Source of the DNA: Vitis vinifera
Taxonomy: Eukaryota; Streptophyta; Magnoliopsida; Vitales; Vitaceae
Length of the DNA stretch: 64,000 nt
Direction: 5' to 3'
Assembly: GCF_030704535.1 (NCBI RefSeq)
Contig: NC_081823.1
Location: 6,144,501-6,208,500 of the forward strand
Shown: one piece after another, positions 22,681-64,000 of the stretch
Layout: every line of letters starts with the position of its first letter
Numbering within the stretch: the stretch's first letter is position 1
Notes under the pieces: generated by a model
The model's input: only the letters and a program-made list of their open reading frames with translations
What the model was told of the DNA's origin: nothing
Database searches by the model: none
Position numbers and translations under genes: made by a program

Positions 22681-22716
22681 AATAAAATAACAAAAATTGT
22701 CAATCCTTCTAATGTA

Positions 22717-22935: not shown

Positions 22936-25188
22936 CATTTGAGCTCAAAAGAGTTGTTGTGTGCCTCTTGTATTTAATATAGAGCTACTAGATACTAAAT
23001 CTTTTCTGTAACCTGTAAGTTCTTTTGTGAAGAGAAGCTTACCCTGTATGTCCTGCTTGGTACCCTGGCCTATTTTCGTTTATTTATTTTTACTTTGCTT
23101 GTGAAAATAGCCCATTAGAAACCATTTCCAAATACCAAGAGCTGTGCATGTTGAAGGTCATAATTATCATTGAGATAAACCTGGGAGATTGTACAATAGT
23201 GCATGAACCCCAAGCTCGATACATCTCCTTTAGGGTGGCTTTATCCGGAAACAATGGCTAGCAGAATAATGTTGAATTCGTTAATAGGATCTGAATTTGG
23301 TGGGTGCCTTTGATTCTGGTTCTAGCTTTAGATGGCTAATTAGAGAATAGTTGAATTTGTTACTTTGAGTGGGATGCTTATGAATTTTATACTGAGGATG
23401 GGATGTCTTTGAATTTGTTCTATGATTGGGATGGCTCAAATTTGCTGCTAGGATTCCATCTTTACTGCAATTGGGATGGGCTGAATTTGTTACTATATTT
23501 AGAGGGAAAAAATGGTGTCCTTTAGGGGGACTGTTGAATTAATGGAGAATATCTCCCTTAATTCCAATACCAAACTCATTTGGAAGTACATCACAATATG
23601 AACCATGCCATGTGGTTGGGATGCAAGATGAACGCAGAAATACAAAGTGTGTGACAGCTTTGTTATCGTTTATTTTACATGAGAGATTGCTTTAAATTTC
23701 AAGGAATTGCATGTAGACATTGAAAATGTCTTCTCCAGATGTGGATATGCGTTTTAATAAAGTATTTTAGATTGCTGAGATTTTGGAGGCCATTAAAAGC
23801 TATTAAGAATAATTTATTATTTCCTTCTCGAGATGTGGATATGCTTTGGATTGCTGAGATTTTGGAGGTTATTAAAAGCTTCTAGACATTATCATCTGGA
23901 TTCTTATGGAAATATTACAGAACATAGTTTTCAATAGAGTCATTATTTTGTGGACTCACATTTAGAGTCATCATAATCATTATAAAAATTTGAATTTTTA
24001 AAAACAGAATCACTTTTTTTTTATTATATATTTCATCATTAAAAATATTTTTAAATGATTTTTTTTGTTTGGATCGGGCTTAACATAATCTAAACCCAAT
24101 TGCATGATATTTTCTTTTTCACAATGCAATCCATCTTATTATATCTGTCCTTCCTTAATCATCCACTAATCAAATCTAACTTAAATTTTTTAGAAATTTA
24201 ACAAAGTTGGTAGAAGGAAGAGATTGAGGAATATTGATGTGGCATTTGGGTTGGAGTTAAAACTTATTATTTATTTATTATTTTCATAATTATTATTTAA
24301 TTAAGTTAAAAACTTAGTACAAAAAATGTCACTTGTTAGTACCATATCACAGTAGATTTCTAAATTAAACCTCTTCCTCAATTCCATTACAATAATCAAT
24401 TTCCAAGGACATGGATATGAGAATTTGAACGTAAATAATGTAAAGTGTGATGGTTAGAAATATGAATTATGTGATAGCTTTGCTATTATAGATGACTTTA
24501 AATTTGAATGCTCCCATGTTATCCAAAATAATGTTAGTCATCAAACATTTTTATGTACATGATAAAAATATTTGACTTTCTTGAATACCCTAAAATGTAA
24601 AAACCTTCTAATTTTGATGTACATATGAAAATTTTAAATGTAAAATCATTTATATCAGTTAAAAAAACAACATTTTTCTTATCCCTTCAATAACATGATC
24701 GAAATTCAATCTCGTTAAATTTGTTGCCTGAATATATGAAAAATATGAGATGTTTATTTAAAACTATCTACGCTGATGCAAATTTTGATCATTTACGAAT
24801 TTCGATCATTGGCTTGTTGGCATGTGACAAAATTATATTTTTAAGTAAATCATTCACCTAAGAGTCTTATGTGAATTTTAACAATTTAACTTGGCATTTG
24901 AAAAAATTATATTGATTTTTTCAAAGAAGCATTAAGAGACATTTATTGAACAATATTTTGCTTACAAAGAAGCATTAAGATTATGAATTTTTTTTTTTAG
25001 ATTTACTCAAGAATTATTTATCTGCATGGCTCTTCTTAATTCTAAGAAGGGGGGCATCATAATACAGTCTGATTGTGGCCTTTTAAGCATCTTAGTATCA
25101 TGAAGCATAAATTTAGGGGGAAAAATAATTCAAAACTGAAGTCATAACAATAAGTGAGAATGTTTAATTCTACAAACAAATCTCTAGA

Positions 25189-27598
25189 TCAAGCCTTTTG
25201 AGTAGAAAAGTTGAGGATCAAGTCTTTGATTTCATCATTGGCAGCTCTTTCAAGTGCAGTCCGCCCATCTGCATCCTTGACAGTGTAACTAGCTCCAGCC
25301 CTCAAAAGCTCTTCAATTTTGGGCTGGTCACCTTCTGAGGCAGCCATCATCAATAAGATGTCTACTGGATGGATGTTTTGGCTTAGAAGAGCCTCCATCT
25401 TATCATACGTACCCTCAACAGCAAGCATCCCCATGTAGTTGAAGTACTGCAAATTAAAACAATACTTTTTTTCATGAACACAATTTGAATTTTAAACATG
25501 ACTGCAATGGAATTCTTCATACAAAGAGTGTGAATGTATGATCACAAGTGGGTTAAGAATCAAAATTGAATATGAAAAAGGCATATTCTCATCTATATTG
25601 CTGAAGGTCTTGTATCGAATCCTGTAAGCGATTCACTGGACTGCTATACATAGGAGCAAAAATTCGCATAACCATCCATCTTCCATGATAGGCAAGAAGG
25701 ATGACTGCCAATACCTTTCTAGTGCTTAGATTACTAACTAAATGGCTTCGTTCTAACCTGCTCGGTATAAGCTTACAATAAAGTTAAAAAGAACTTAAGT
25801 TCTATAATTTGAGGCATGTGAACTATCAATAATAGTACACCCGCTCCTGGAGCCCTAGTCGGTCCTCTTAAAATAATGCGCATGATGAACATTTTAGCAA
25901 GGAAGACAACCGTGCTATTTGACTTTTTTTATCATATTTATTTCACTTCCATTGCTCAAAATTCATAGCTTTCCCCTCCTATCAAACAAGTAGGTAAGCA
26001 AATATCAAGGATATAAGTAAAGCCCCTTAAGCTTTGAAGCTTCTATGGATATGTTGGCTACATCCGATAGTTGCAGATGCAACCTAGATCCAAGTTGAAA
26101 AAAGAAATGATATCGTAAAGATGAGTGATGAGAATTGTTGACAATGATATCAAAGAGTTCTAAGAGAGTCTCTCTGGACAATCAAATCAAGAGGGCTTTT
26201 AAGCACTTGTAGCAATGTGCCTGCATATTCCACATGTAAGCCAATCCCAAATGCCACCAACTCTGTTTAAAAGATGCGATATAGCCCATTTGGCTGTGAT
26301 TCTGGCCTTTCTAGCAATTGAAAACTTTTACCAAAAAACTGCTTTCAAGTGCTTTTATCCTATCATCAGGCCTACTTTTGAGTGATAATTGAAATCTAAT
26401 TTGATAACAAAAATGAAAAATAATTGGCATCATTCCAACTGTTCCAATTGTTCAACTAGTACTAGTTACTTTCCATGTAATGTTATTTCTTCTTCTTTTT
26501 TTTATTTTTTTTTATTTTTATAATTGAGGGACCTTCCATGAACAAACCCTTAGACTCTCCATGGCTATCCAAACCTCAAGGTACTAACTGTCCCACAACG
26601 ACTAGTAGTAGGTAAATTCAGGGTATCATTAGTGGTAAGATTCGAACATAGGACAATATGTCACTTCTCCAACGTAATAATGACATTAAAATGGAAGGAT
26701 TTAACCAAAAAAACAGAACTCCAAAAAAAAAAAATTGAAAAATAATACACATTATCCATTCCCTTGTGACAAAAGATTTTGGAAAATTGCAGCCTCTCTT
26801 TGGAGGAAATGGAAAATCAAACGTAGAAGGAAATGGAAAAGAAAACAAGACAAGGTTGAGCTGAAGAAAATTTTCCAGTTTTCCTCCATATTTCTCAACT
26901 TTCTTTACTCTGCTAAACAAAACATGAGGAGTTTGAAAATGTATAGACCCCCCCTAGTTTTCACCCAATTTTCTTTTTCTTGCAATTGTCCACCACAATA
27001 AACAACAAAAATTGCCAATCCTTTTCCCTCTTCCTCATTATTTCTTTTAGATTCAACCAAAGTCTGAAGATCATAGCAGCCACATAAATAACAATTCAAG
27101 TCAACCCATTAATCCAACAATCCCAAACTCAAGAATTTGGACGACAAAACCTAAAAATCCCCATAGCACCAAATTCAGCCAAAGCACATTACATCACCAA
27201 GTTAAAATTCTTATTTTCCTGAATTTTTTTATTTTTTATTTCTTAATTTGAGCAGTTCCTAATTCATCAACATTCACATCATCATTCCAAAGCTACAAAC
27301 AATAAACACACAGATGGAGAGACAGAGAAAGAAGAACCTGTTCAACATCATCTCTGTCAAAATCATCCCTTGTTTGGCTACCATAGATCCCAGCTCCTTC
27401 AGCATCAACACCCCTGTTACCAAACCTGAACCAGCATGTGGCTCTGGAGCCATTGCTGGGTCCAAGTCTGGTGGGTGTGGACCATGACAGTTTTCTTGGG
27501 ATACCCAGTAACTGAGAAGTAAAAATGGGTGGATTTGAAGGAGAAATTTGGGGTTTTGATGTGAAGAGTAAATGGGTAGTGCATGGGATTGAAGCCAT
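25189..27598 (-). CDS. LTD: LTD / GDC1: ankyrin protein for LHCP import targeting (2 exons)
   Basis: Plastid protein that in Arabidopsis (LHCP translocation defect / grana-deficient chloroplast 1) passes imported light-harvesting proteins from the envelope to the cpSRP route. Exons 27598-27338 and 25446-25189 join in frame for 172 residues across a 1.9-kb intron. The Ser/Thr/Pro-rich first 50 or so residues form a transit peptide (MASIPCTTHLLFTSKPQ). A conserved linker follows (WFRFGNRGVDAEGAGIYGSQ, DDFDRDDVEQ). Exon 2 holds YFNYMGMLAVEGTYDKME and two ankyrin-type repeats (HPVDILLMMAASEGDQPKIE, GRTALERAANDEIKDLI). An in-frame ATG at 27628 would add 10 residues; 27598 is favoured because MASIP looks like a normal transit-peptide start. 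A truncated copy of exon 2 lies at 21978-22191. Confidence 0.93.
26480..26690 (-). mobile_element. SINE-like fragment in LTD intron
   Basis: On the minus strand there is a perfect polymerase III B-box core, GTTCGAATC (about 26638-26646), then about 130 bp of unique sequence ending in an A-rich tail (T-rich on plus at 26491-26520). No good A-box is visible upstream, so it may be a 5'-truncated SINE or only tRNA-like by chance. It falls in the copy-2-only part of the intron. Confidence 0.35.
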
Positions 27599-48481: not shown

Positions 48482-49932
48482 GGAAGCTGGAGTTAGAAGT
48501 GAAAGGACGAATATGGGGATGGAGAACTGAGCCGATGTTGATTCAATGGCTTGATTCGTTTAAAGAGAGTAGCTTCTACAAATGAAGAAAAGAAGTGGGG
48601 CTTATTGCACAAATACACTAGTTTTAAAAATAAATAAATAAAAATTAAAAACACTCCTCTAACGAAAATATTTCTAAAACTATGGCAATCATTAACATTC
48701 GTCCATCTCAACAAATGAATAGGTTATTATCTAGTAACTGTTTTTTAAAATTGTTTTTCTAAAACAATTTTTTATTCTTTAAAATAAAAAAATAGAAAAA
48801 CATGTGTAATAAGTAAAAAATCAAAAAAATAGGTTTTTGTTCTTAAAAATAAAAATAAGATGGTTGTCAAAAAAAAGGAGCAATTTTTTAGTTATTTTTT
48901 ATTACTTTTATTTATTTTTTTAAGATCTTTTTCAAAAAAAATAAGTATATAAATATAAAGAATAATTAAAAATAAAATATTGCATATAAAAATTATTTTA
49001 AAAATATATTTCATAATATATAAAATATGTTAAAAACATTTTAGGTTTTTAAGTAATTTTTTGTTTTATAAAATATCAAATAACAAATACACAATATTGT
49101 GAGATCAAACAGACAAATACTCGTTATGATGTTAAATAAATCTTCATACACAGGTTGGGGTCGGGATTGACTCTTACACCGTTTGTTTGGTCTTTATGAC
49201 TTTAAAACTCATTTACAAAATTAAGAAGAGTTTATATATATAGTGTAAAGAACTTTATTCTTTATCTGATTTAAAACATTACAATGTCCGTTATGAGCCT
49301 AATTGTGATGTTCCACATCAAATTGAGAAGAAATTTTCTAATGCTATATATGTATAGATTATTCTTAATTTTATAAACGTATTTTAAAGTCGTGAAAACT
49401 CTTTTGAACTCAAAGTAAACAATATGTATACCAATTGAGAATAAGTCATTATAAATGATATCAAAATCAATCGTCAACTTTGATATAGAAGTTTGTTTAA
49501 TCCTATGAGTATGATTGTCTATTTGGTCTTACAACTCCTTGAGATACGATAAAATATAATGTTTTCATATTGATAATTATGATATTTCACATTATATAAA
49601 AAAGAAACTTTTTAACAAAATATATATATATATATATATATATTAAAATATTTAATTCATTTTGCTCTTATTTGAATTTTTCTTCTTAAATTCATCTTTT
49701 CAAAAAATAACTTTTATCATATTTTAATAACATTTTTTAAATAACATTTTTTTAAAATCCAAACTGTTATTTATAATTTACAAAATAGAGTAATATTAAA
49801 TCTTATAAATGGTTAATTTGATTTTTGTTATTGCTGATAAAGAAAGAAAGAAAAAAAAAACAGTTTACAAATATCCAATACATGAATCACAAAAAAATTT
49901 GGAATGTTTGTGGTAGAAACACAAAATCTCTT
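48482..49932. other. TRAPPC3 promoter side and AT-rich spacer
   Basis: Next to 48481 is the TRAPPC3 5' UTR/promoter. Beyond are AT-rich repeats, an imperfect inverted repeat (49192-49401) and a (TA)n run at about 49620-49642. No gene seen. Confidence 0.5.
49192..49401. repeat. Imperfect inverted repeat of ~65-bp arms
   Basis: The left arm (49192-49258), reverse complemented, resembles the right arm (49331-49401): both read like TTC-TAA-TGCTATATATGTATA, TTCTTAATTTTATAAACG and TTTTAAAGTC. Between them lies TGTGATGTTCCACATC, like the 5' end of the TGTRACATCCCACATCGG plant repeat family. Possibly two such elements in opposite orientation. Confidence 0.55.
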
Positions 49933-50008
49933 TGTAGACCCCATTTAGGGCTCATTCCTTTGCATCTCTACAGGTTATAATTCTTTGCAGGTGGAGGGGT
50001 CTCAAGGA

Positions 50009-50086
50009 GCCACGTGTCGCCTCGTGGTTGGTGGTCATAGAAACAGATGGTGGAATTGAGGAGCGAGTGAGAGTTTGACACGTGGC
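50009..50086 (+). promoter_or_regulatory. Paired G-box/ABRE-like motifs in LTR 1
   Basis: GCCACGTGTC at 50009-50018 and GACACGTGGC at 50077-50086, in opposite orientation within the LTR 5' part. LTR 3 keeps CCACGTGTCA (59349) and a decayed GACACCTGG at about 59416. ACGT-core boxes bind bZIP/bHLH factors in plants; a regulatory role here is inference. Confidence 0.4.
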
Positions 50087-50099
50087 ATGGAGATATTCT

Positions 50100-50710
50100 G
50101 GCCGTTAGAGAGGAGGTACGTTTCTGTTGAGGAGCAGCAGGCCAGCTAGAGGAACCAGGGGGGTGCCTTTTCAGCGAGGAGAGTTTTTTTTTAGAGAGAG
50201 AGGAGAGTTTCCGGGAGGCGGGTTACAGAAGAGAGAGAGAGAGAGATTTGAGAGGAGGGGGGGATGCCATGGACGACTGTGAGAAATTCTAGAGTCTTGG
50301 AGTTTGAGCTGAGGTAGGGAGACGATTTTCCTGGAGCTTAGGGGAAGGCTGCAGAGAGAGGTGGTTGCTTTTAGAGAGGCTGCAGAGATCTTTAGAGGTG
50401 AGGGATATGAAAAAAAGGAAAAAGCTCGTGGCTGGTTAGAGTGAGAAAGGGTGAGATTCCGGTGGTTTTTCTGAGAGATAGCTTGGAGAGAAGGTTGCTT
50501 GAGGGAGGCGTGCAGGGATTCTGCAGGTATGAGAGAGCTGTGAGGGGGATTTCTGGAGAGCGAGGAGCAGGAAACTGTGAGAGGTAGTGGTGCTTTTGGT
50601 TGCTGATTGCTGGAGGAACCTTTTGGGAGAAAGATTCTGAGCTGAGTATTCACCGAAGACAGAGCAACGAGTCACAACTCAAAACACCCAGCTGAAGAAG
50701 AGACTTTCAG
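50100..50710 (+). other. GA-rich leader of LTR 1
   Basis: Purine-rich stretch (GAGAGAGAGAGAGA near 50231, many GGAGAG words) ending in TTTCAG then GTTTGG at about 50708. The corresponding place in LTR 3 (about 59835) reads TCTCAG then GTACGT. These may be splice donors of the LTR transcript. Open frames on the minus strand are artefacts of the purine bias. Confidence 0.45.
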
Positions 50711-51112
50711 GTTTGGTTACTATGGTTTTCATGTACGTTTCCATTCTTCATACTTTTCCTATCTCATGCTCTGTGATTTTTAACTTTGCTTGTTGAGTTG
50801 CTTTGATTGGGTGATTATTGGTTTAAAATTTGAAGAGTTTGCTGCATTTTATGTTTTACTTTGGCGAATATCTTCCGTCCTAACCCACTGATTGTTAAAC
50901 TCATGAATGAAATAATGACACGGGTTTAGCATACTGGTTAAAAGTTCCATGCTCTGTTCTCCTCTCTGTTTTTCTTGCTCCTCTGTTTTCCCCTGAAGGA
51001 GATTGTCAGGCTTTAAGATTGGGAAGCTGGAGAGGTTGATTTACGGAGGATGATGATGATATGAAGAGGAGATTGACAGCTATGGGATCTGAATCTGAAA
51101 ATGCCTGTATGA

Positions 51113-51450
51113 GGTGGATTGCCTTATTACTTCACTGAAGAACAGATACAAGAATTGTTTGATTCCATTAGACCCCTGTGTGGTTTTGATCTTGTCAAGG
51201 ATGGAGACACAGGGAACTCTAAGGGATATGGTTTCTGTGTTTATCAGGATCCAGCTGTGACTGACATTGCTTGAGCTGCATTTAATGGTTTGAAAACGAG
51301 TGATAAGACTCTCACAGTGCTTCATGCCACAGTTGGAAGTGGACAAGCAAAATCAGAGCAAGATAATATATTGGCCCAGGCACAATAACATATAGCTATG
51401 CAGAAAGTTGCCTTGCAAGCTGGTGGTTTGAATTTCCCGGGAGTGGGATG
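51113..51450 (+). pseudogene. U2AF65-like splicing factor fragment (RRM)
   Basis: From 51113 the frame reads GGLPYYFTEEQIQELFDSI, then GFDLVKDGDTGNSKGYGFCV, YQDPAVTDIA and NGLKTSDKTLTVLHATVGSG, which is an RNA-recognition motif of plant U2AF large subunit with its RNP1-like KGYGFCVY. It goes on to IAMQKVALQAGGLNFPG. Stops interrupt it (after TDIA and after AQAQ). The real gene has many introns; none is visible here, so it may derive from mRNA. In sense with LTR 1. Confidence 0.8.
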
Positions 51451-51882
51451 ATGGGCGTATGAAGAAATATTGGAGAGCATGAGAGGAATGAGCCAAAGAG
51501 CAGTCCACAAGGCTATGTTTGAATCTGTAGCATTAGCGGCAGCTAGTGTCCTCCAAACCTCCTCCACATGCACCAGAAAATTTATCATCTCCAGTGGGTA
51601 GTGTCTCATCTGGGAGAGTTTGACAAGGCCTAAACTGTTAGAAACAATGACTTGGGTCTATTTTGGGGAATTTGTTGAAATTCAATTTGACAAGAATGGA
51701 GGAGTACGAAGCATGAACTTCAGTTTCTGATATCAGGTTCACTTGATGGCCAAGTTCCCATTGGGAAATCACTACCAGAATCACCATCAGTTAGTGCTTC
51801 ATGTTATATAAACTCCGTAGCATGGTGATGTAGTGAATCTAATAATGGTGTTGGGAGTACTAATGGGCCTGCATTTGAGTGC

Positions 51883-52280
51883 ATCTTGATGAAAGATTTC
51901 CTCAAGTCACTCTCCAAGAGGCTCAAAGGCAACATCGCTGGTTATGAGAACTACCATAGGGTCTATGTTCCTGAGGGACAGTCTCCTAAGTTTGATCCCA
52001 AGGAGCCTTTGCGGGTTTATGTTCTGTTCCAGCATATACAGAAAATGCTGTCGGGCGAGATTGCTGTCATTGCTGAGACTGGATATTCTTGGTTTAACTG
52101 TCAGAAACTGAAATTGCCTAGGAAATGCAGATATGAGTTCCAAATGCAATACGGATCAATTGGTTGGTTAGTAGGCGTCACACTTGGGTATGTACAGGCC
52201 ACGCCCAAGAAGAGGGTGATGATTTCTTGCATTGGTGATGGTAGTTTTTACGTGACTCTGCTAGATATCTCTATAATGAT
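51883..52280 (+). pseudogene. Pyruvate decarboxylase fragment
   Basis: Frame reads [20 protein letters not shown], then [53 protein letters not shown] and [18 protein letters not shown], the C-terminal part of plant PDC. It includes the start of the thiamine-diphosphate GDGS motif (IGDGSFYVT). It ends abruptly and diverges after that. Open for 139 codons but lacks most of the enzyme, and has changes such as Asp-to-Tyr in AETGDSWFN. In sense with LTR 1. Confidence 0.88.
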
Positions 52281-52289
52281 CCTTTTGAT

Positions 52290-52500
52290 AAGGAACAGGC
52301 AGTAGTAGCATTGTGGAAATGTTCACTTGAAGGAAAGCAATATATTGATGCCGTAATGCAATCCTGAGGCTGCTTGAATCTCGCAGTAAATCTCCTTAAA
52401 TCAGATTCCAGTTCTACTTGTGAAGCAGCTGCAGGCCTTCTACAAGAAATAGCTTCAATTAATCTATACAGAGAGTCAGCAGCAGAAAGCAGGGCAATCT
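52290..52500 (+). pseudogene. Armadillo-repeat protein fragment
   Basis: Reads [20 protein letters not shown], a stop, then GCLNLAVNLLKSDSSSTCEA and AAGLLQEIASINLYRESAAE, typical armadillo helices of a plant ARM protein. One in-frame stop. It abuts the PDC piece within about 20 bp, with no shared gene origin, so the junction was made by the element. Confidence 0.7.
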
Positions 52501-52504
52501 GGGA

Positions 52505-53000
52505 TTACTGATGCTGTTCATCAACACTCCCCCACCCATTGCTATCAAACCCATGCATATCACCAATTCCTACATATATATATTGCCATACCCCTCATAC
52601 CCGTTATATCCCTACATTCTGCCACTCATCCCACTATTCGATACCCATTCATTTACTAAATCACTTTTCAGCCATCCCACTCACTGTTTAAGTCCGTTTT
52701 TCTCATCACCATTCGTCACCCACGAATCCACTTCCTTTGCTTCCCTACATGTGATCATCCTCATCCGAATGCGCCCTTCATACTCGGCATCTTTCATTCA
52801 TTTTTGACTCCATATCCATTTAATCCCCTTTCCTACTCTATTTTACCCACATTCCTACTTCACTCTCCACATTTTCCCTTTCTTCCACCAACGAACGCGC
52901 CATTTTTATTGTCCTTCATCATCCAAGCCGTCATCCCAACTTTCATATGTTCCAAACTCATTATCCATCAAACCTCATGCATGGGATCTCGTTCTTCCTG
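52505..53000 (+). repeat. CCCAT-rich linker in LTR 1
   Basis: Pyrimidine-rich low-complexity DNA with many CCCAT, ACCCAT and CCATACCC words (for example near 52530, 52590, 52640 and 52750). Similar stretches lie in LTR 2 (as ATGGG on plus, 57600-58450) and LTR 3 (61120-61400, 63030-63130), always among the captured fragments. Confidence 0.65.
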
Positions 53001-53109
53001 TTCTTGGTTGTTAACATGGTATATACCAATCCGATGAAAGGAAAGACAGAATCTGATAGATGGGTCAGGAAAGTGATCAATAAGTTGGTATGATTGACCT
53101 ATGTTTGAA

Positions 53110-53580
53110 CTCAAATGTCCTTCATTACTTCGTATTACACAGTGGTTGGCTGCTATGACAGTTTCGGCATTTCCATTGCTCATTGGGGTAGGGATATCGT
53201 GCTACAGGTTGAGAACTGGACTGCTTGCGTCATTGACTTTCTTGGTTTTGTTGCATTGGATAAACCAACAGGCTTTGCACATGCTATGAAGACGTGAAGT
53301 ACCCATTATTCACAGGCGTATTGGGTCCAATTTGAATAATGTCTTGTGCCCAGACCTATGGAGACATGCTGCCCACCCAAGATCATGTTCGAACGGTCCC
53401 CTGACAGTCGTAGTACCAGCCACTGTTTGAATTGGGTTCCCCAGGAAACCACATTAAATATGATGGCTTAGACCAGGTTGAGAAAAATAATGCACCAGTT
53501 ACTGATAATATTGTTGACAAGCAAGACAAACTAGAGAATGAGAAACACATGGATTCATTTCCAGATTTCGCCAGAGATTT
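53110..53580 (+). pseudogene. Unidentified coding-like fragments in LTR 1
   Basis: Short open stretches such as GCYDSFGISIAHWGRDIVLQ (53145 onward) and GSPGNHIKYDGLDQVEKNN (53432 onward) have protein-like composition but I cannot name the source genes. They sit between the CCCAT linker and the DUF716 fragment and are probably more captured pieces. Confidence 0.4.
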
Positions 53581-53916
53581 GTGTTTGATAAAAATGTTCT
53601 CGCGTCAGTTTCTTTGTGGCACATATGCAGCGCAGTAGTGGGATTTGTGATGAACCCAAAGGAGTTTCAGGTTCGGGTTTTGAACCCAGTGTCTGGTTTT
53701 GATGGAAGGCTTAGATACTTGGAGCTTTATGTGTTGGCAATCGGAGCTTTTATTGATATGTGCATAGAGTTTTTGTATTCAACTCGTCTCAAGTTCTTTG
53801 TGAATGGGGTCTTGAACCCATCTCACACGAATGACTTTGAGCACTCTGGGATGCTTCTCATGTTCTTTATTTTCGGGGTCGTCGCCTTGTTCTCTCAGCA
53901 AACTGGGCTTGTCTAA
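53581..53916 (+). pseudogene. DUF716 (TMEM45-like) membrane protein fragment
   Basis: Reads VVGFVMNPKEFQVRVLNPVS, then GFDGRLRYLELYVLAIGAFI, DMCIEFLYSTRLKFFVNGV, LNPSHTNDFEHSGMLLMFFI and FGVVALFSQQTGLV, the central part of a plant DUF716 protein with the conserved NDFEHSG motif and hydrophobic helices. The start and C-terminal helices are missing. In sense with LTR 1. Confidence 0.8.
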
Positions 53917-54334
53917 AACTGAATAACCAATGCTCAATAGCCTTCACATAGCTCCGTTTCTGCCCTCACATACTTTCGGCGCGTGACTTGTTTGAATGAG
54001 AGCGACTTTCATTGCCAAATAGTTACTTGGGGAACCGGTGACGTTACTCCTATTGCAGGATTGCTTGGCAAATCTCAATTCCAGATTCACTTAGGAGGGA
54101 TCCTTGGCTGCTAATTGGAAGGCTTCAAGACAGAAGGAAGTGAAGAGTGATGACACCAGGGAAGTGACTTGATTATCTACTCTACACTTGCCTGCTCATG
54201 GCCCCAAAATTTCAGAAGTGGTAAAGAAGCTGGAAGACTGCAAGTTCTGAAATTGACCTAGCCTTTCAAGTTGGGTTCCATACATTGAAATAAGAGGCAG
54301 TAGCATGAGTTGTCCTCCAGAATGGCTCTATTCT

Positions 54335-56170
54335 CTGCATGGTGCATGGCCACCTTTGGGCCACAGTGCCATTTTCCCATTTCACCATCTCTAATTTTGA
54401 AAAATATTCTTTTAAATCCCTTTCTTCAAATAATTTTCTAGATCTTAGTTTGTTTTAAAATAATTTCAAACTCATCCATTTTTCATCCTTAGTTGTTTTC
54501 TTAGGTTCTCAAAATCCCATTTTCAATAAATTTTGGTTGCCATTCTCTTTCCGGAAAGCCACTTTTGAATTTTCTTTGTTTTTTAAAATGTTTTAAAATA
54601 CGCAAGAATCAAATTGTGTAATTCCTAGTTATGGAATTTACAGATTTGGTCCATGCAAAATAAATGGGCTTTGGTGGGGGCCCAACATCAAATAAAATTT
54701 CTTTAAAATAAAAATGAATTTTCAGTGGAGTGCCATGCGTGTCTTTGATGATTTTGTACTCGATTTAGTGACATGTATGCTATATCTTGTGATCATTGTT
54801 TTGTACTAATCTCATTTCTCTTGATAGCGCATAGTGGTTCGCTGCTCAGGTACACACTCATTCCTACTCTATTTAGTCTATGTGCATTTTCTGACTCCCG
54901 TATGTGCATGTTTCGCTCTGAGTATTCATTGATTTATTCATCCATTGCCATGTCAGCTTCATTTTATTAGTAGAGACCTGACTTTAGGGACTTAGAGGGG
55001 TGCTATGGTCTTTACCGTACCTTCCCGATAAGTAACCTGACCCCCGAACCCGATCCGGTTTTTCACAGACCACCTTTTCCAAAATAAGGAGTCACACTTA
55101 GGGTTTTTCTTTCTTATTTTGTTTACCCTTTAAAAATAAAACAAAAATAAGTGGCGACTCCAAGTCATTTTCAAATAATCAATAAAAATCAATTTTTCAA
55201 ATAAAAATCAAGCTCGCCATCGAGTGGGAAACGCATTCGAGCCATCGAAAATGCGGGGTCCACAAAATGGCGACTCCACTGGGGACCCCGCATTTCGGCT
55301 CATGCGTTTCCCACTCGATGGCGAGCTCGATTTTTATTTAAAAAATTGATTTTTATTGATTATTTGAAAATGACTTGGAGTCGCCACTTATTTTTGTTTT
55401 ATTTTTAAAAGGGTAAACAAAATAAGAAAGAAAAACCCTAAGTGTGACTCCTTATTTTGGAAAAGGCGGTCTGTGAAAAACCGGATCGGGTTCGGGGGTC
55501 AGGTTACTTATCGGGAAGGTACGGTACGGACCGTAGCACCCCTCTAAGTCCCTAAAGTCGGGTCTCTACTAATAAAATGAAGCTGACGTGGCAATTGATG
55601 AGTAAAACAATGAATACCCTAATCGATCATGCACAATATGAGAAGTAAAGCATGTATAAAGAATAGGCGAAATATGAATAGATGCGCACCTGGGCGGCAA
55701 ACAGCAACGCGCTATCATGGAACAGGGTTAGTGAATTATGAACAGATATAATTAAGCGCATATCAAGAACAGAGCAAATCAATCATGCCGGGAAAGCCAG
55801 TCAACTAATCAGTAAATCAATCATGAAATCACATATGTAGGGCCCCCACCAAAGCCCAATTCATTTTTGCATGAATTAATTCCATAAATTCCCTTGCTTG
55901 GAATTACGGAATTCGATCCTAGCTTATTTAAAACATTTTGAAAATCAGAGGAATTTTGAAAGTCACTAGCCAAAAGAAAGAATGGCGGTGAATTTTATTT
56001 GAAAAGTGAATTTTTGAGACCTAAAACCCTAAGGATGAACGACTCTCAAAAGATTATTTGAATAAGGAGAATTCGGAAAATTATTTGAGGAAAGAGAATA
56101 TGAAAACTACTTTTTAAAAAAAAGATTAAAGGTGATAGGATGGGGAAAATGACACTTGAGTCAGAGGCGG
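54335..56170. repeat. Large palindrome formed by two LTR 3' ends
   Basis: Left arm 54335-55264 and right arm 55286-56170 are inverted copies. The inner 300 bp (54970-55264 versus 55286-55575) are nearly identical; outer parts are more diverged but share GGGCCCCCACCAAAGCCCA and the GGCCACCTTTGGG / GGCCGCCTCTG region. The spacer of about 21 bp contains the primer binding site. Confidence 0.93.
55268..55285 (+). other. tRNA-Arg-type primer binding site
   Basis: TGGCGACTCCACTGGGGA lies 3 bp after the LTR end CACA. From memory it is complementary to the 3' end of a plant tRNA-Arg (...CCCCAGTGGAGTCG plus CCA), the primer used by Ogre-type Ty3/gypsy elements. Confidence 0.75.
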
Positions 56171-56440
56171 CCATGCCATGAGTGCTTTCCCGCATAACTT
56201 CACTTTCTAGTTCTATCATCTGTGGTTCACTAGCGTCCATAGCAATGGAAGAAGAGTGGTGCTTGATCCTTCTGTAACGCCCTTTCTGTGTTGGATGTTT
56301 CAACCGTATATACTCACTGAAGCGACCTGCAAGCATTGAATGATACCCTTCATACCAATCAACACAGAGGAAATATCTCTGTTCGACAAGCTGGACTGCA
56401 TGAATAACTTTGAAGTATTCTTCCCCTTCTCTTCTCAATG
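56150..56440 (-). pseudogene. Unidentified coding-like fragment in LTR 2
   Basis: Minus-strand frame reads EEYFKVIHAVQLVEQRYFLC, then VDWYEGYHSMLAGRFSEYI and MDASEPQMIELESEVMREST. Composition is protein-like and the frame is open, but I cannot assign a family. Probably captured host sequence. Confidence 0.4.
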
Positions 56441-56784
56441 AGCAGTAGCAGTTTGGTATACAGACCTGAGTTCAAGAGAAACGGAGTGCCATTCTGGAGG
56501 GTCACTCTCTATAAGGAATCCCATAGCAGGTACAGAAACACTGATTACACTGACTCCCTTACTCTTCAAATTCTCACTATCATGTCCCGAGAGGAGTATT
56601 CATCACTGGATTTTCACAATTCTCTGGTGACTAACAGCCGTATTAGCTTACTGAATCTTCCCATACTCTTCCTGAAAACACTCCACCAATCTCTCTGAAA
56701 CTGAACACAGGTTGCGTTGAAATTTAAGCTGGGAGACGCCCTGGGATATTCGTCTTTATTTGATCTGAAATATAATCACATCTC

Positions 56785-57215
56785 CTGCAACTTGTCATAA
56801 CCAGCAAGCACGCCTGCATCAGCAACTGCACAAAGAATGTTAGCATCAGCACCCTTGAAGAGAGACTTGATACCCTCATTCTTCAGGACTTGAGCAAAGG
56901 CGTCAAAGAAGCTCTTGTGTTTGACAGCTTCGCCAGAGGTCATCATCATTCTTCTACGAACCGTCTCCATTGGGTAGGAAGCAAGGCCAGCATCATTTGT
57001 GATCAGCCAACAGAGGGCAAAGCTAGCGAAGAAACTATCCTGCAAACCTCCAGTAAAGACCACTGGTTTCAGAGGATCAGATATTCCAAAGTAGAGACCA
57101 CGGCAAACAATGATCCCAACACATGAAATATTGACTCCACGGTAAAACCCAGCAATACCGTCAGACTTCAAGGTCTTCCTGTAGACATCAACCAATCTCT
57201 GACCACCTGAGGGGA
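56785..57215 (-). pseudogene. Mitochondrial ADP/ATP carrier fragment
   Basis: Reads [20 protein letters not shown], then [60 protein letters not shown] and [20 protein letters not shown], covering carrier repeats 2-3 with the RRRMMM signature. It lacks the N-terminal third and the end. Changes at normally fixed sites (the Gly in GWLITN is Cys; PIDTVRRR reads PMETVRRR) mark it as non-functional. In sense with LTR 2. Confidence 0.9.
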
Positions 57216-57599
57216 TGAGGCCCTCGCACCTTTCTTTGCAGAAACTTCAGTTCCAATCTCAGCTTTAACTTTCCTATTCCCAGCAATATAATCAAATGCA
57301 ATCACCATCTAGCAGAATTGAGAAAGCTTCTTCATTATGAATAAGACCTGTCCTGTAGCTTCCCTCGCCAATCCCAATGTATTCAATAGAGCAGGTATCA
57401 TACCTCTTAAGAGATGTGAGAGTCGGGATGGTATCAAAGAGTTCCCCAACCCCATCAGCACGTCAGCACCTGGTAATCAACACAGTCCAAAACACAATAT
57501 TTCCATGGGTATTTCATCACAAATACGCATACATAATCCCATATAACCTCACGATGCATACTCATTGGGCAATGAATTTCAATACGTAAATATCATCGT

Positions 57600-58450
57600 G
57601 CGGACCAATTTCACGACAAGGGCATGTAAACATTGGCATTTTCTGAAACCTTCAAAATCCACCAGAAAACTTGAGAAAGAAATGGAATGAGAAGTTGTTG
57701 GGAAGAGTGAATTGCCTTGCATGAGAGTGTAAATAGAGAAAAAGGTATGAGAGTGTGTTTGAAGATGGGAGTGGCGGGGTTGATGAAAAATAGGTATGGG
57801 AACGATAGTGGCATGTAGGATGCATGGATGACTTAGGAGCCTTCATGAAAACGTGGAATAAATACAAGGGTAAGCCATGCATGTACAAGAAAAAGAACTG
57901 TGGATTGGTGAAGAGAGTAATGGGTATAAAGGATGATGAGAGAGAAAATGTGGCGGGATGAATGTGAAGGTGTAGGGATATGGGTATGAGAGAGATGATC
58001 AGATTTGCATGGGAGCTTAGGTCGGTGAGCAAAGAAGAGAAATGGGTATGAAGTGAAAGTACGCAGGCATGCAAGGGTGAGAAATAAGGGTGACAGACAG
58101 GGAAATTACCATGAGCATGGATATGAGAGATGTAATGGTGATGAATAGAAAGTGAGATCTAAGGAAAAGAAGAAATGGGTACTATTATGAAGTTGGTGGG
58201 TATGGGTATAATGAGATGTGCAGGTATGAATTAGTGGAATGGATGGTGACGATTAGTGAGAAATAGATACGGGAAGAAGGTTAGGCTTGCATGGTCCACC
58301 ATGTACGTGAATAGGTGACTTTGAAGAGCCTTGAGCAGCCATGTATAGTGCAAGAAAAAGGCTATGAGTAGATATAAATATATGGGGTGGGTATGAGATA
58401 GTCAACGAAAAGGACCTGCACCATTTGGCATTGCAGAGCTCTTATATTTG
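57600..58450 (-). repeat. CCCAT-rich linker in LTR 2
   Basis: On plus it shows repeated ATGGGT/GGGTATGAG words (for example near 57790, 57920, 57980, 58040, 58200 and 58390), i.e. CCCAT-rich in the LTR orientation. It lies between the F-box and ADP/ATP carrier pieces. No coding potential. Confidence 0.6.
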
Positions 58451-58484
58451 TGCCCATTTACATGCTTATTCCTTGCGTGATAGC

Positions 58485-59092
58485 CTAACTTTCCCCAGCA
58501 AAGATACTGAGAACAAAATCTGAACCTTGACGCATCTCTATGAGTTTCAGGAGCTTCTTCCTCTGCCAAGATCCTCTCAAAACTTTCAGCGCAGGACCCT
58601 CATCAACCGCGTACTCCAATGCCTCTTTTGTGCAGCAATCAGGGAGCATCAAGGCTGTAGCCAATCTATTGCTACAATGAAGTATGGAATTTATGAATGA
58701 AGTGACGGAGAAGAGTCCCATGCTTTGATACACTTTCATGAGCTTTTTCATAATCGTCTGTTCAAAGTGAGGAAAAACAAAACGTTTCCAGCACACAGGA
58801 TCCAGGCTCACTTGGTACCACGACTTGCATACATATGGAACTGCAAATAGTAGTGAATCCCTTTCCACTCCTCCAAACACATTCACCAATCAGTCCATGT
58901 TGAATTCCACCGATCTTTGTTCTTCCCTCTTGGGCACAGAGGCGGCCTCGAATGGAGGGCCTCTAGTTCACTAGGCAAGGCAAGGTCCTCCTTGTTGCAG
59001 AAATTAGGAAACTCTCGAGTTAATGGCAGCACAGCTTCTTTCTCGTTGATCTGTATAATATCCTTAGTGATAAACTGATCCAGATCAACCAC
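58485..59092 (-). pseudogene. F-box/LRR protein fragment (SKIP19/FBL23-like)
   Basis: Two minus-strand frames, 59092-58883 and 58889-58485, overlap by a few bases and are offset by a frame. Around the break the reading is DRWNSTWTDW, then VNVFGGVERDSLLFAVPYVC, KSWYQVSLDPVCWKRFVFP, a degenerate F-box (Wxx..LL..vp.VCksW). Downstream is LMLPDCCTKEALEYAVDEG-like wording, as in plant F-box/LRR proteins. The upstream 60 residues are of unknown origin. In sense with LTR 2. Confidence 0.7.
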
Positions 59093-59949
59093 GGCTGTAG
59101 TATTTCCTCAAAGTACAACTTGAGCATTACCCTGCTTCCTCCCTAGCTGAGATCTTTGCACAAACCCAAACCAACTGGAAGAGCTTTATTCATCCTCTTC
59201 TCCCATAAGCTTAGCTCTATGGTAGCTTTACCATGAATCCCTCAGGTAGGGACATACAGCCTGATGTACCACAAGGTAGGTGTAGACCCCCATTTGGGGC
59301 TCATTTTCTGCAGCTTGCTTTTAGCCAGGTGTCACAATCTGGGGGAAGCCACGTGTCACATTTTGACTAGCTGCTAGAGAATCACAATAGTGGAGTTGGA
59401 GGAGCAATCAGGGATTGACACCTGGAGGGGAGCTGCAGATGGGTACGTTCTGTTAGAGGGGGAGCGTCTCCTGCAGGTGGTGCTTTTCAGAGAGGGGGGC
59501 GATTCTGTTGAGGTAGGAGGAGATATTTTTGAAAAGCAAACCAGGGAGAGAGCAGGGAGAGGTGGTCCGGAGTGCTGCCGCTAGAGATATTTTTTTTTAG
59601 AGAGAGGGGGGAGCTTTCACAGGAGGTCAAGACAGAGGGAGAGCAAGCTAGGTAAGAGGCTTTTGGCTGCCATAGTGGAGAGATGGAGAGGACAAACAGG
59701 GAGAAGCTCGGTTGGCTTCAGGGGAAAGGATTCTAGCTAGAGTAAAAGCCATTCCCCAAATCGAGTAAAAGAGAAAAGGAAACTGGTTTTGCTGAAGGTA
59801 GTGGGTAAGGAAAGAAAATTTGAAAGAGCATCTCAGGTACGTTTGTTGCAACTTCTTGGATTATTCTCACTCATCACACTTTTTTTTTTGTTTTCTTTTA
59901 TTATCTTTCATTCTCCCTGATTGTCTCTATTTTTCTAAGCCTTAGTTTT

Positions 59950-61110
59950 TTGTTCAGATATGAGTGTGATTACTGTGTTACTCTCCTCTCGTATTTGTTT
60001 ATTTTAACATGGCTCACTCCCATTTTGGTATTGGTTTTAAACTCTTCTGCTAAACCACTGGTCAGAACCCCTGGATCTCAATATGAAAGGGGATCCCACT
60101 TAATGCTTGGCTCACTCTATTTACTCTGCCATGGGAACACTATATCTTGTTTTATTTCTTCCTCCATTTCTGGTATCTCAATCCATATCTTGGTTTCTAG
60201 CTCACGTTTCTGGATTTGTTTTGGACTATTGGTTTTGTGCTCTGGTTTGTGCTTGAGGGGAGAGGGTGGTGCTTTAGCTATTGCCACAGATTCAGGGTTC
60301 CCAGTGGGCGAGATGCATATGGGTGATACTTCAGCCATTGCTTTGACTGGTTAATGGGTGAAAATTATAGCAACTGAAGTAATTTTCGGTTGATTGGATC
60401 TCTCTTCCATGGAGTTCTCAGGCAAATCAATTTCCCTTGGCAAATGAGGTTGTAATGAAGACTGCAGCTGTTCCCATTTGAGATCGAGCTTTAAATTGTA
60501 ACAGGGTGCCTATTTGGAATAGACCAAGTTCCTTAGTGGCTACTATGCATTTGGATTTTCGCCTTGTTTCATGGTCACAGCTAGCAAGAAGGTGCAGTAT
60601 TGTCATGCAAATCCCCTGGTTCTGAGCTTATGTTTTCTGAAAGATTTGGTCAGTGTGTTTTGTGGCATTAATGCACTGGAGATTCATCAGGTGATGATAA
60701 GACATCATGGTCCATTTCTGTATACTGAAGCCAGGGATTTTTTTTGTTCAAGCTTTGCCACCTGGACGCGTATTGCCCTCTGGTTGTAACAACAATTCCT
60801 AGGAGATGAGTGATATTGATCCTTGAGGGTCTTGCGCCGAGATACATATTCAGGGAAAGTTGGATTAGATGATACAGACAAAGTTGACATGGTATACGAG
60901 GTTATTGCTGATCACTTAAGAACTCTTTCTTTTGCTATTGCTGATGGGTTTTGCCCAACTTAAAGCACTTTTGACCCGTGGATTGGGTATGGGTGAAATC
61001 CACTATGAAGAATGCTACTGCTAAGATACTTGCCCATTTTAAATGATCAGAGTGAGGTTGAATGCTCCTTGATACCTATTTCTGTACATGCATGGTTGTC
61101 CAAAGCTCCT
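59950..61110 (+). other. Unassigned cargo in LTR 3, 5' half
   Basis: Mixed open stretches (for example VTASKKVQYCHANPLVLSLC at 60571 onward) with stops. Composition suggests degraded exonic or UTR pieces, but I recognise no source gene. Confidence 0.35.
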
Positions 61111-61119
61111 TCTAAAGCC

Positions 61120-61400
61120 CTTGTTGACATCCCAGATCCATCCATCCATGTGCATGGGAACCATGCAAACCCGGCTGTCATTCCCATGCCCATTTCCCAT
61201 CATCTCCACACCCATTCTCCAAACCCATTAAACCCATTCCATGTTCATCACCTTCATCCATCAATATCTCTCGTACCTATTTTCTCTCTCTAAACCTTCC
61301 CATGCATGCCACTACTCTGTTAATACCCATAAACCCACTACTCATGGCCGATACTCCCCTCATTACCCTCTATCACTCATCCATTCTGCCATTAAGTGCA
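61120..61400 (+). repeat. CCCAT-rich linker in LTR 3
   Basis: Dense CCCAT/CCCATT words (61170-61250 and around 61330), equivalent to 52505-53000 in LTR 1. A second short one lies at about 63030-63130 (CATACCCATTTCCATACTTA). Confidence 0.65.
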
Positions 61401-61920
61401 CACCTTCTTTGGTAAGGCTGCTCACCTTGTTGACAACACCAATCACCAGGGCCACTTCCAAAAGGTGTTGACTGCCATTGTGAACTTCTGTATATACTCC
61501 ATTGCGTTTGGCATAGTAGTAGAAATGGTGATGATGTACCCAATTCAGAGACGCAAGTACAGGGATGGGATCAATAATCTTTCGGTGTTTCTCATAGGAA
61601 GAATACCAATTGCCATGCCAACAGTGTTGTCAGTGACAATGGCCATAGGCTCTCCCCGGCTGTCAAAGCAAGGTGCTACCACAAAGAGGATGACAGCAAT
61701 AGAAGAGATGGCTGGAATGGATGTTTCTTTGCGGTGACAAGATTGGGACTCTCACCTTCAACAAGCTTACCGTGGACAAAAGCATGATTGAGATATTTTC
61801 AAAGGACGTGGACAGTGATGTGGTGATTCTGCTTGCGGCTAGGGCTTCCCGGGTTGAGAATCAGGATACCATTGATGCCTGCATTGTGGGAATGTTGGCT
61901 GACCCCGGTGAAGGCAAGAT
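61399..61920 (+). pseudogene. Plasma-membrane H+-ATPase fragment
   Basis: Reads [20 protein letters not shown], then [56 protein letters not shown] and [15 protein letters not shown]. After a frame change near 61725 it continues [20 protein letters not shown], then [20 protein letters not shown] and CIVGMLADP. This is the membrane helix 3-4 to phosphorylation-site region of the AHA pump. The catalytic DKTGT is changed to DKIGT and the frame is broken, so it cannot work. No intron is visible although AHA genes are rich in introns. Confidence 0.92.
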
Positions 61921-62480
61921 CAGAGACAGTTGGAGGACGCACAGTTGATAAAAGCTTGCGATGATCTTCGAAGCAGGGTCAAATTCCTCCAGAAACGGTC
62001 TGAAAGCTGTGACATACAAGGGCGCATCAAGTCACTGGAGGATGCAGTCGCATGTGCTCTTACAGCTGACATGGATGTAACCTATGGTCATTATTGATGA
62101 TGACCATTTTTGGTGGCCAAGAATCCAGGTGAGAAGGAGATGAATGCATTGGCGCGTCACTTATTGAATTTGCTGATGCCATTGGTTCCTTTCTTCTTCA
62201 ATGTCCCATGTGACCCTTTCAAGGAAGCAGTAGATTTTTGTTCAGGTGGACCCATTTAGCTTGAAGAAAAGAACCCCCAGTTGACATATATCACGGGCAG
62301 TGGCTCAACACCCCTGATTTTGACGCCCCAACACAGCTTGTCCAATCACTCGAGCATGACGCCGAGCATGTGCATGCTGTTATGATTACCCCAGAGAGAA
62401 AGGGAATCGATTGAAGATGGGAAATGATAGCAAGGATATCTTCTTCATGTTGCAAGTTGATGGAGATTGCGCTCACTCAA
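61921..62480 (+). pseudogene. Further unidentified coding-like fragments in LTR 3
   Basis: Directly after the H+-ATPase piece the text changes to [20 protein letters not shown] (coiled-coil-like), then near 62110 to VAKNPGEKEMNALARHLLNL. These look like captured exonic pieces from other genes; no family assigned. Confidence 0.4.
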
Positions 62481-62539
62481 AAGGCAACAATAACAAATGC
62501 TCATCTGTTACTCTCATGTTTCAAATTGGAAGGCTTTAT

Positions 62540-62880
62540 GGTGGCAGTCCAATAAACAATGGAGAAGGATATGGGAGCTTTTCCTTGGTGACCCTTCCAA
62601 GTCCCTCCCCCTCTCTGTTCGCTCCGGTGCTGTGATTTCCATGCCTAAAACCCTGGTGCCAAGTCCTTCAGATAAACCAAAATCAAAGATTGGACTACAG
62701 CCTTTACGCCTTGTTAATCACTCCCAGCGTGGAGGGTCTGCAAAATCTGATGTTACGAAGACGTCTAATGTAGGGAAGCTCCATGTTCTGAAGCCACCCC
62801 GAGAGAGGAATGGTATCTCACTAGCTGCAAAGGATAGCTTGAGTCCTACAATGGGCAGCAGGGTAGCAAATAACCCCTCT
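62540..62880 (+). pseudogene. Fragment of an uncharacterised Ser/Pro-rich plant protein
   Basis: Frame reads WELFLGDPSKSLPLSVRSGA, then VISMPKTLVPSPSDKPKSKI, GLQPLRLVNHSQRGGSAKSD and GKLHVLKPPRERNGISLAAK. It is open for over 100 codons and shows protein-like, disordered composition. I cannot name it. In sense with LTR 3. Confidence 0.5.
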
Positions 62881-64000
62881 TGTTGTCACTCCACCAGTTG
62901 CTGGATCTGTTTCTTTGAGGAGTCCAAGGAACAATCCAACCCTTAATACTGCGAGCGAGCACCCATTTTCTATGTCCAGATGCCAATCCAATGGCGCTGA
63001 ACCCAAAGCCTTCTGCCAGTCCACTCATTGCCCATCTCATACCCATTTCCATACTTACCTTTCATAACCTCCCATGCATGTCATCTTTTCTTTAAAGCCT
63101 ATAAACCACCTTTCTCTCCCATGCACGACCAGAGGAAAACACTTGTGATAGCCTGGACCTCGATAGTGGTGTTGGTGATACATGCAGCACCTAGCTGGAA
63201 ACAACTCTAGCATTGACTTGTGGAATCATAGAGAATTACCTCACGTAGATTGCAGTACAAATGGAAATTCAGACTTTGGCAGAGACTCAACATGATACAG
63301 GGTTCTAATCAAAGCTTGCTCTCGTCCAAATACTCAATCCTGTAAACATCCATGGGATCAGTAGTGAATATAAGAGGAGGTCAGGAATGCAGATGAAAGA
63401 AAATCATCATTGAAGTATTGGGTTGAATAGTGGGGTTATCATGAGATCAAGAGGCTTATGGCTTGGTGACAGTAGTTGTGACATGGACAGATGAGGGGAT
63501 ATGAAAGGCCAGATTTGAGAGATGAAGCCTACGTTTCTATCAAGGACTATTTTAATTGATTCCATCAAGGTTCTCACGTGTGAGTTATGGATGGCAATGA
63601 ATACCTTGATTACGTGGGTTCATGGGATCAACAATCATTGGTTATATTGATGATGGAACGTTGACGGCTTTGGTTGAAGTAATAAAGAAAGGAAAATGCT
63701 TTGGTGCCCTCTGCCTTCTAGAGAATGTTCTACCCAAGACAGTTATATTTGTGTTCCCAATGGCAAGCCAGGCCCCACGTCACCACTGTCCGGGTTGATG
63801 ATCATTCAAGCACCCTTCCTCATGGAGTGGCCACCTGTGATCTAAATCCCATCCCATCCCATCATCTTTTGACTTAGAAAATAATCTTCCCAAACACCAA
63901 TCTTGCAAATGGCTTTTCAATATTGTTTTCCAAATAATTTTAACTCCTCCATCTTTCATCTTTAGCTTTTTCTTTAGGTTCCAAAAATCCACTTTTCAAA

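Follow-up and report, generated by a model that had tools for sequence, protein, structure and literature searches.

Within a 64,000-bp stretch of the Vitis vinifera genome (C19:6144501-6208500, hereafter the window) we found long terminal repeats (LTRs) of a retrotransposon family whose middle parts carry fragments of different host genes. We regard it as probable, at about 0.8, that they belong to a non-autonomous grapevine family coding for Gag only, and that the cargo of their LTRs goes back to serial template switching between element RNA and host mRNAs. Paired LTRs with cargo, target duplications, intron loss, sense bias and mosaic sharing of modules are observed. These remains appear to support capture by template switching well; the switching step itself, the co-packaging of host mRNAs and a helper are their most likely explanation. 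The genome searched comprised 495.6 Mb in 21 contigs, which are designated here by C and a number.

Two full elements were resolved outside the window. The LTRs of the C18 element (35368305-35373476 and 35383560-35388731, target duplication GATTG) show 0 differences in 5172 bp. For the C15 element (5645651-5651391 and 5661414-5667154, target duplication GGGTG) 17 differences were counted in 5741 bp. Both have paired direct terminal repeats with TG start and CA end, the common primer site and GAAGAGGGGCATATT ahead of the 3' LTR, and the identity between their 5' and 3' LTRs includes the cargo. A third element at C15:12.88M with the target duplication TGATA possesses a 5' LTR of 6531 bp; its 3' LTR is reduced to the last 876 bp, apparently by deletion. 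At this locus (C15:12882173-12889179) the remaining part of the 3' LTR stops near the boundary of cargo and 3' block, where breaks may be frequent. Perfect duplications flank solo LTRs on C3 (CCTTG), C4 (CATAG), C10:17.45M (AAAAT), C14:18.1M (GAGTG) and C14:14.6M (CATAG), and for the solo LTR at C6:16.33M 4 of 5 bases agree. Altogether, with the window insertion and one on C1 included, the 5-bp duplication is perfect in ten of the eleven insertions with both flanks read, the C6 copy being the remaining one. CATAG is the duplication of two solo LTRs (C4, L029; C14:14.63M, L049) and also the left flank of a third LTR at C1:7.94M (L047), which may hint at a target preference or be due to chance.

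Between the C18 and C15 elements, the internal regions agree by 88.6% in their first 1.06 kb and by 90.3% in the next 8.7 kb. The gag domain PF03732 was identified in these two (6.3e-12 and 9.5e-14, respectively) and in the C15:12.88M element, and no pol family was found among the 14 internal open reading frames (ORFs) scanned. The longest ORF listed for the pieces of the C18 element has 456 amino acids; an ORF spanning the cut between L016 and L017 would escape this listing. One element codes for a Gag with 100% identity to the V. vinifera protein LOC104877469. Among the best 120 of 359 matches, all named ones with at least 80% identity belong to Vitis (vinifera, riparia, piasezkii and rotundifolia).

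Nine complete LTRs of 4.7-7.3 kb were compared pairwise with BLAST for shared blocks. All of them start with TGTAGACCCC. A conserved 3' block is common to all 36 pairs, with 743-924 bp in 30 of them; it is longer in the other six, which also have adjoining cargo in common. The 5' block was detectable in 10 pairs, with up to about 210 bp. Less than 5% of the middle could be aligned in 23 pairs. LTR 1 of the window and the solo LTR on C3 form the sole pair with most of the middle alike (93%), and their 5' ends differ. The LTR middles of the C18 and C15 elements do not align, although their internal regions are about 90% alike. Thus, the swappable cargo assumed in the original prediction is borne out, as is its location inside the LTRs, present twice and between LTR start and primer site. 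Short LTRs with the fragments in the internal region had been named there as the contrary outcome; both resolved elements have LTRs of more than 5 kb with the cargo in each copy. The constant ends were predicted correctly for the 3' block, whereas the GA-rich 5' part is conserved weakly. As a further feature, each LTR of W1, W3, C18a, C15a, C15b, C3, C1, C14 and C10b has at least one C/T-rich stretch of 200 bp (>66% pyrimidine); in the window these stretches carry words similar to CCCATGCATG.

The absence of donor introns from the cargo indicates its origin from RNA. The LTR copy of U2AF65 has lost four introns of its donor (C10:5925769-5927699), the copy of the plasma-membrane H+-ATPase two (donor C9:2081124-2081833, exons 94-99% identical) and the copy of the ADP/ATP carrier one (donor C13:28348052-28348875). 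In total, eight introns are exactly missing across four donor genes. Read against the donor DNA, each of them extends from GT to AG on the sense strand of the LTR, with zero leftover bases. The identity between donors and LTR fragments is about 83-99%. By this sequence evidence the cargo consists of pieces of spliced host mRNAs.

The cargo of 12 LTRs (W1, W2, W3, C18a, C15a, C15b, C1, C14, C4, C10a, C12 and C10b) was surveyed with Pfam, and matches to host families with E <= 0.001 were counted. Of 294 ORFs with 45 or more amino acids, 104 made up the sense set; some window ORFs, mostly from C/T-rich spacers or the leader, were dropped by hand. The antisense set was the longest 104 of 274 ORFs, untrimmed, and was thus not chosen in exactly the same manner. 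Matches were obtained for 13 sense and 2 antisense ORFs. The sense matches include mitochondrial carriers, Sec61-beta, protein kinases, HSP70, an EF-Tu-type GTPase, lipase, ARM, P-type ATPase, FPP and F-box; the latter two fall under Pfam's own cut-off. Sec61-beta in C18a and C14 is one common module, and the two kinase matches may be likewise. Host pieces were found in 11 of the 12 LTRs, C10b being the other one, with the call for C1 depending on FPP alone and the HSP70 call in C14 on a motif. The antisense matches are a transferase in C15a and NAD-GH in the stretch of C14 that holds the HSP70 piece. NAD-GH is presumably a known artefact family, and this match is likely an artefact. Where the orientation of the cargo is readable, it is nearly always sense.

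The cargo is a mosaic. Modules of the C15 LTR occur in many loci with a common end at query position 1751 and starts at 958, 1065, 1306 or 1488. Module edges of the C18 LTR (568 and 1295) recur in other loci, and so do modules of LTR 1. L048 on C6 joins cargo of the C10b type (97-99%) to cargo of the LTR 1 type (90%), and the C3 LTR consists of LTR 1 cargo behind a different 5' end. Compared with their separate sources, the pieces to the left of the ADP/ATP carrier fragment show overlaps of 4 or 13 bases and of 13 bases. Such overlaps fit microhomology-guided jumps, though they may also be due to a chance extension of the matches.

From these data the following course may be proposed. The LTR opens with a short 5' block; in most cases a GA-rich leader with a splice-donor motif at its end comes next, then about 3.5-6 kb of cargo and the conserved 3' block, and the tRNA primer site follows. 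The family probably moves with the help of a relative that supplies reverse transcriptase and integrase. In the course of minus-strand synthesis, the reverse transcriptase would start at the primer site, copy the conserved 3' block, switch to co-packaged host mRNAs as well as to other variants of the LTR, and land again in the 5' block. Since reverse transcription puts the new middle into both LTRs, each such accident would be heritable and open to reshuffling.

Intron loss would also result from retroposition by long interspersed nuclear elements (LINEs), whose processed pseudogenes could have been inserted independently into the LTRs and then been spread by the elements. Processed pseudogenes are unusually numerous in V. 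vinifera and are tentatively tied to its L1 LINEs in the accessible text of one study (PMC7935947). The U2AF65 and H+-ATPase fragments, however, end within the coding sequence on both sides, and no A10 run occurs in the nine LTR middles. Furthermore, the pieces are mostly in LTR sense and abut each other, whereas insertions made by LINEs should lie in either orientation. We therefore consider this origin quite improbable. It is less improbable, but still unlikely, that recombination or gene conversion among copies diversified the middles once the elements had integrated, with host pieces as rare and ancient entrants. The modules with common edges in many loci fit such a process, as do L048 and the C3 LTR, both of which are recombinants. 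In contrast, each of the two full elements (C18 and C15) is a young and intact single insertion flanked by a target duplication, so that mosaic LTRs evidently go through the transposition cycle, and the high identity of the H+-ATPase exons to their donor also speaks against ancient entry. Recombination may act alongside template switching rather than in its place.

Gene fragments are also carried by Pack-MULE-like or Helitron DNA transposons, and the termini of LTR 1 form a short inverted repeat. Pack-MULEs have terminal inverted repeats and a 9-bp duplication, and Helitrons are not known to produce a target duplication. In the grapevine elements, direct repeats of 5.2-5.7 kb enclose a primer site; gag is present, the duplications measure 5 bp, solo copies occur, and the introns of the donors are absent. 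Neither type thus agrees with the long direct repeats and 5-bp duplications. An identity as DNA transposon is refuted by the paired direct repeats, and its probability is practically negligible.

Several observations weigh against capture by template switching. The main set of LTRs was selected by likeness to the 3' end of LTR 1 and is thus biased. A host donor was assigned for a minority of the cargo sequence, and no host match occurred among the ORFs scanned of C10b. The young C15 LTR (C15a) contains a clear antisense module, the transferase PF02458 (4.4e-22, L020:5131-5559, plus strand). Since numerous modules are also present at other loci, the diversity may largely go back to old shuffling and not to new capture. 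The first six listed junctions of LTR and primer site, all on C1, comprised four LTRs of related other subfamilies (about 2.2-3.9 kb, without donor motif) and one inverted pair of the LTR-1 type. From five of these six loci, 64 sense ORFs of at least 45 amino acids were compared; L046 was included and its near-identical partner L045 excluded. None of the 64 gave a host match in Pfam. The cargo is thus a property of a subfamily and not necessarily recognisable in every copy.

In the whole genome 834 junctions of LTR and primer site were found at up to 2 mismatches (reversed control 0). They do not count cargo-bearing elements, in view of the other subfamilies among the sampled junctions. LTR starts of the LTR-1 type amount to 310 at up to 1 mismatch (control 0), and host pieces were demonstrated for only some of them. 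Pattern scans of viral contigs gave 0 matches, and scans of prokaryote genomes gave 4 matches to an 18-base pattern, by estimate about the chance level.

The features of the window are summarised in Table 1. Both predicted LTR starts, 49933 and 59281, were confirmed: the same start is present in the paired LTRs of both full elements and in solo LTRs that have target duplications. Of the three LTRs with common ends that had been proposed, LTR 1 and LTR 3 stand, and LTR 2 proved to be a partial copy on the minus strand without TG start. An arrangement of all three in one orientation is thus ruled out by the self-comparison of the window. This comparison revealed an inverted repeat at 54344-56176 (about 75% overall, 93% over the inner 363 bp) and no second LTR in the same orientation sharing the middle of LTR 1. 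LTR 1 matches the solo LTR on C3 with 98% over its positions 541-5332. LTRs 1 and 3 have mainly composition in common beyond the first 200 bp or so. LTR 1 is followed by a primer site, and no purine-rich stretch was found in front of LTR 3. The expected cargo was recovered for LTR 2 (ADP/ATP carrier, F-box) and for LTR 3 (H+-ATPase), the latter with pieces of alanyl-tRNA synthetase and reversibly glycosylated polypeptide in addition. For LTR 1, U2AF65, pyruvate decarboxylase and ARM were matched, and DUF716 gave no Pfam match at E up to 1. Outside the LTRs, 19040-22575 and 22716-26992 of the window form a tandem duplicate of a host region with pieces up to 89% alike.

Table 1 Features of the LTR insertion in the window (positions refer to the window unless a contig is given)
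Feature	Position	Strand	Evidence or remark
Target duplication CTCTT, left copy	49928..49932		right copy directly after LTR 3, C19:6209216-6209220
LTR 1, 5332 bp, TGTAGACCCC...GGGGTCCACA	49933..55264	+	followed by AAA, then primer site TGGCGACTCCACTGGGGA
5' block of LTR 1, weakly conserved between LTRs, presumed U3/promoter part	49933..50130	+	
GA-rich leader of LTR 1 with putative splice-donor motif TTTCAG/GTTTGG at its end (exon end 50710)	50083..50710	+	sequence motif
U2AF65 mRNA fragment, LTR 1	51112..51443	+	four donor introns exactly absent; PDB 4.4e-14, RRM 3.5e-11
Open frame with pyruvate decarboxylase fragment, LTR 1	51829..52302	+	PDB 6.7e-25
ARM-repeat fragment, one repeat, LTR 1	52368..52508	+	Pfam 1.5e-4
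Conserved 3' block of LTR 1	54344..55264	+	
Acceptor-like site TACTAAT...CTTGATAG/CGC, AG ending at 54827	54804..54830	+	LTR 3'-end alignment
Primer binding site TGGCGACTCCACTGGGGA	55268..55285	+	identical site follows the 5' LTR of full elements
LTR 2, partial (about 4.0 kb), inverted, without 5' TG end	55283..59280	-	3' end joins primer site over GGA
Fragment of donor gene at C3:9521.9-9522.9 kb, LTR 2	56349..56569	-	one intron exactly absent
ADP/ATP carrier mRNA fragment, LTR 2	56780..57195	-	7.7e-57; one donor intron exactly absent
F-box fragment, LTR 2	58488..58889	-	3.5e-4, under Pfam's own cut-off
LTR 3, 5435 bp in all	59281..64000	+	ends at C19:6209215, 715 bp past the window
Putative splice-donor motif TCTCAG/GTACGT closing GA-rich leader of LTR 3 (exon end 59836)	59831..59842	+	sequence motif
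Alanyl-tRNA synthetase fragment, LTR 3	60820..60960	+	3.7e-8
Plasma-membrane H+-ATPase mRNA fragment, LTR 3	61396..61911	+	1.3e-54; two donor introns exactly absent
Reversibly glycosylated polypeptide fragment, LTR 3	62104..62256	+	1.4e-9
3' block of LTR 3, portion in window	63923..64000	+	

CTCTT stands directly left of LTR 1 and directly right of LTR 3. A related empty site at C19:6210870 reads AAAATCTCTTGTTTTTTC without interruption, with flanks that are 81-82% and 96% alike. These flanks and the empty site suggest that a single insertion brought two dissimilar LTRs plus part of a third one in reverse orientation. The reading that LTR 3 is a solo copy inserted into LTR 2 is ruled out, as LTR 3 is preceded by GTAGG but followed by CTCTT. 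LTR 2 is joined to the primer site after 18 copied bases of the latter, over the common GGA (window 55268-55290). Plus-strand strong-stop DNA would end at such a point. Hence, it is attractive to assume mispriming on another LTR as the cause.

Against a simple course of events stands a second copy of LTR 3. LTR 3 recurs together with its right flank at C19:6223885-6229337 (1 mismatch and 18 gap positions in 5453 columns), where it adjoins a normal internal region. The two copies (C19:6203781-6209300 and 6223885-6229450; L013, L014, L035) are 20.1 kb apart, so that a local duplication seems to be involved; the repeat stems either from such a duplication or from the way in which two alleles were assembled. 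Between the copies lies the beginning of a host gene, with an open frame from C19:6212648. Inverted arrangements were also found elsewhere. At C1:26611038-26627244 (L025-L027, duplication TTTAT) an inverted LTR end of 1.2 kb replaces the 5' LTR, and thus both outer ends are 3' ends of LTRs; the inverted end is identical to the 3' LTR of the same copy by 99.7% over 970 bp and 98.4% over the outer 245 bp. The pair at C1:7474900-7483170 (L045, L046) consists of inverted, outward-facing LTRs, each followed by a primer site and 99% alike over 3.4 kb.

A further question is how the elements tolerate their cargo. The donor motif YTCAGGTWYG closes the GA-rich leader at LTR positions of about 510-860 in eight of the nine complete LTRs and is present in three of five further ones and in L046. 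Altogether 12 of 15 LTRs of the LTR-1 type possess it. Shuffled sequences led to an expectation of 0.06 of 9, and the reverse strand of the same nine LTRs has none. At the other side of the cargo, a CTAAY box, pyrimidines and TGATAG/CGC (CTAAY + TGATAGCGC) were seen in all ten aligned 3' ends, and this motif looks like a branch point with acceptor. The cargo may thus lie inside a leader intron.

It could be speculated that the LTR holds an intron-housed cargo bay, which acts as a standing trap for spliced host mRNAs. Transcription would begin in the 5' block, and the leader would be spliced past the cargo to the fixed acceptor in the 3' block. The gag mRNA would then be free of cargo, and the unspliced genomic RNA would keep it. 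The bay would be copied at the stage of strong-stop synthesis and first transfer, where the obligatory template jump would become a trap for mRNAs, and every member of the family would be a different collage of cDNAs. Less certain than the capture itself, this proposal would attribute the tolerance of the cargo to its position between the leader donor and the conserved acceptor. Some points speak against it. The donor motif was written after viewing these LTRs, it is absent from C15a, L030 (altered start) and L031 (start not found), and some of its carriers have cargo in common by descent (LTR 1 and C3; C10b and L048). The proposal is tentative; it is a good lead, but we consider it less likely than not.

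For LTR elements, most known captures of host genes concern the internal region or are isolated cases. Bs1, a transducing LTR retroelement of maize, has its cargo in the internal region and is not known to hold it in the LTRs. As in Bs1-type elements, host cDNA fragments are present in the grapevine family, but they are located in both LTRs. A 2026 review of gene capture by plant transposons names, in the text accessible, transduction by Bs1, TRIM and Rider and template switches of BARE-2 and Veju (PMC13317346). According to the same text, Bs1 likewise carries fragments of several host genes including a plasma-membrane H+-ATPase; its host domains are encoded within the element, whereas the grapevine cargo varies by copy (PMC13317346). 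For BARE-2/Veju-L and complex elements of the Triticeae, the parts of two articles at hand describe foreign sequence brought into an element or an LTR by abnormal template switching, or multi-LTR insertions flanked by target duplications, as found here (PMC13317346, PMC1950507). There, the foreign sequence comes from another retrotransposon or an unknown source; in grapevine it comes from host mRNA and recurs across the family (PMC13317346, PMC1950507). The outer LTRs of the Triticeae complex insertions are alike, while those of the window insertion are unlike and the middle one is inverted (PMC13317346, PMC1950507).

Non-autonomous gag-only LTR elements such as TR-GAG have a gag ORF without pol; giant LTRs with host cargo are not known to be part of their definition. 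The grapevine elements resemble TR-GAG in the gag domain and the lack of a pol family among the internal ORFs scanned. Their primer site TGGCGACTCCACTGGGGA is presumably similar to the tRNA-Arg type. With regard to the Ogre/Tat lineage of Ty3/gypsy, non-chromoviruses use tRNA-Arg among others, and cargo in LTRs is unmentioned in the portion available (PMC6317226). That lineage is recognised by its reverse transcriptase phylogeny and an extra RNase H domain; no pol was found in the grapevine elements read by which they could be placed. Retrosat2 and relatives also have LTRs of >3 kb, with 10-bp inverted LTR ends (PMC3485330). They differ by an extra ORF0 upstream of the gag-pol ORF, and a patchwork of host genes in the LTRs is unmentioned in the excerpt of that article (PMC3485330). 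Genes captured by LTR elements of rice and sorghum are comparable in the genome scale of capture, and capture within the LTR is undescribed in the corresponding excerpt (PMC3726574).

In the open-access literature, covered by titles and the openings of abstracts, no account of host-gene capture inside LTRs as a family trait was found; subscription journals and Repbase lay outside this search, and an earlier description is possible. A distinctive feature of the grapevine elements is the repeated capture by one subfamily, inside the part that is copied twice and left behind as solo LTR. These LTRs are a natural record of template switching on host mRNAs, in which donors, junctions and ages can be read. 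They also offer another origin, open to testing, for the remarkably large share of processed pseudogenes in V. vinifera, a share that is tentatively tied to L1 LINEs in the text accessible (PMC7935947). If the proposal of a cargo bay is true, such a bay would be a dedicated and recurring path by which host mRNA becomes heritable DNA, and it would feed the surplus of processed pseudogenes in grapevine. In general, the family points to a recurrent route from the messages of the cell to mobile DNA.

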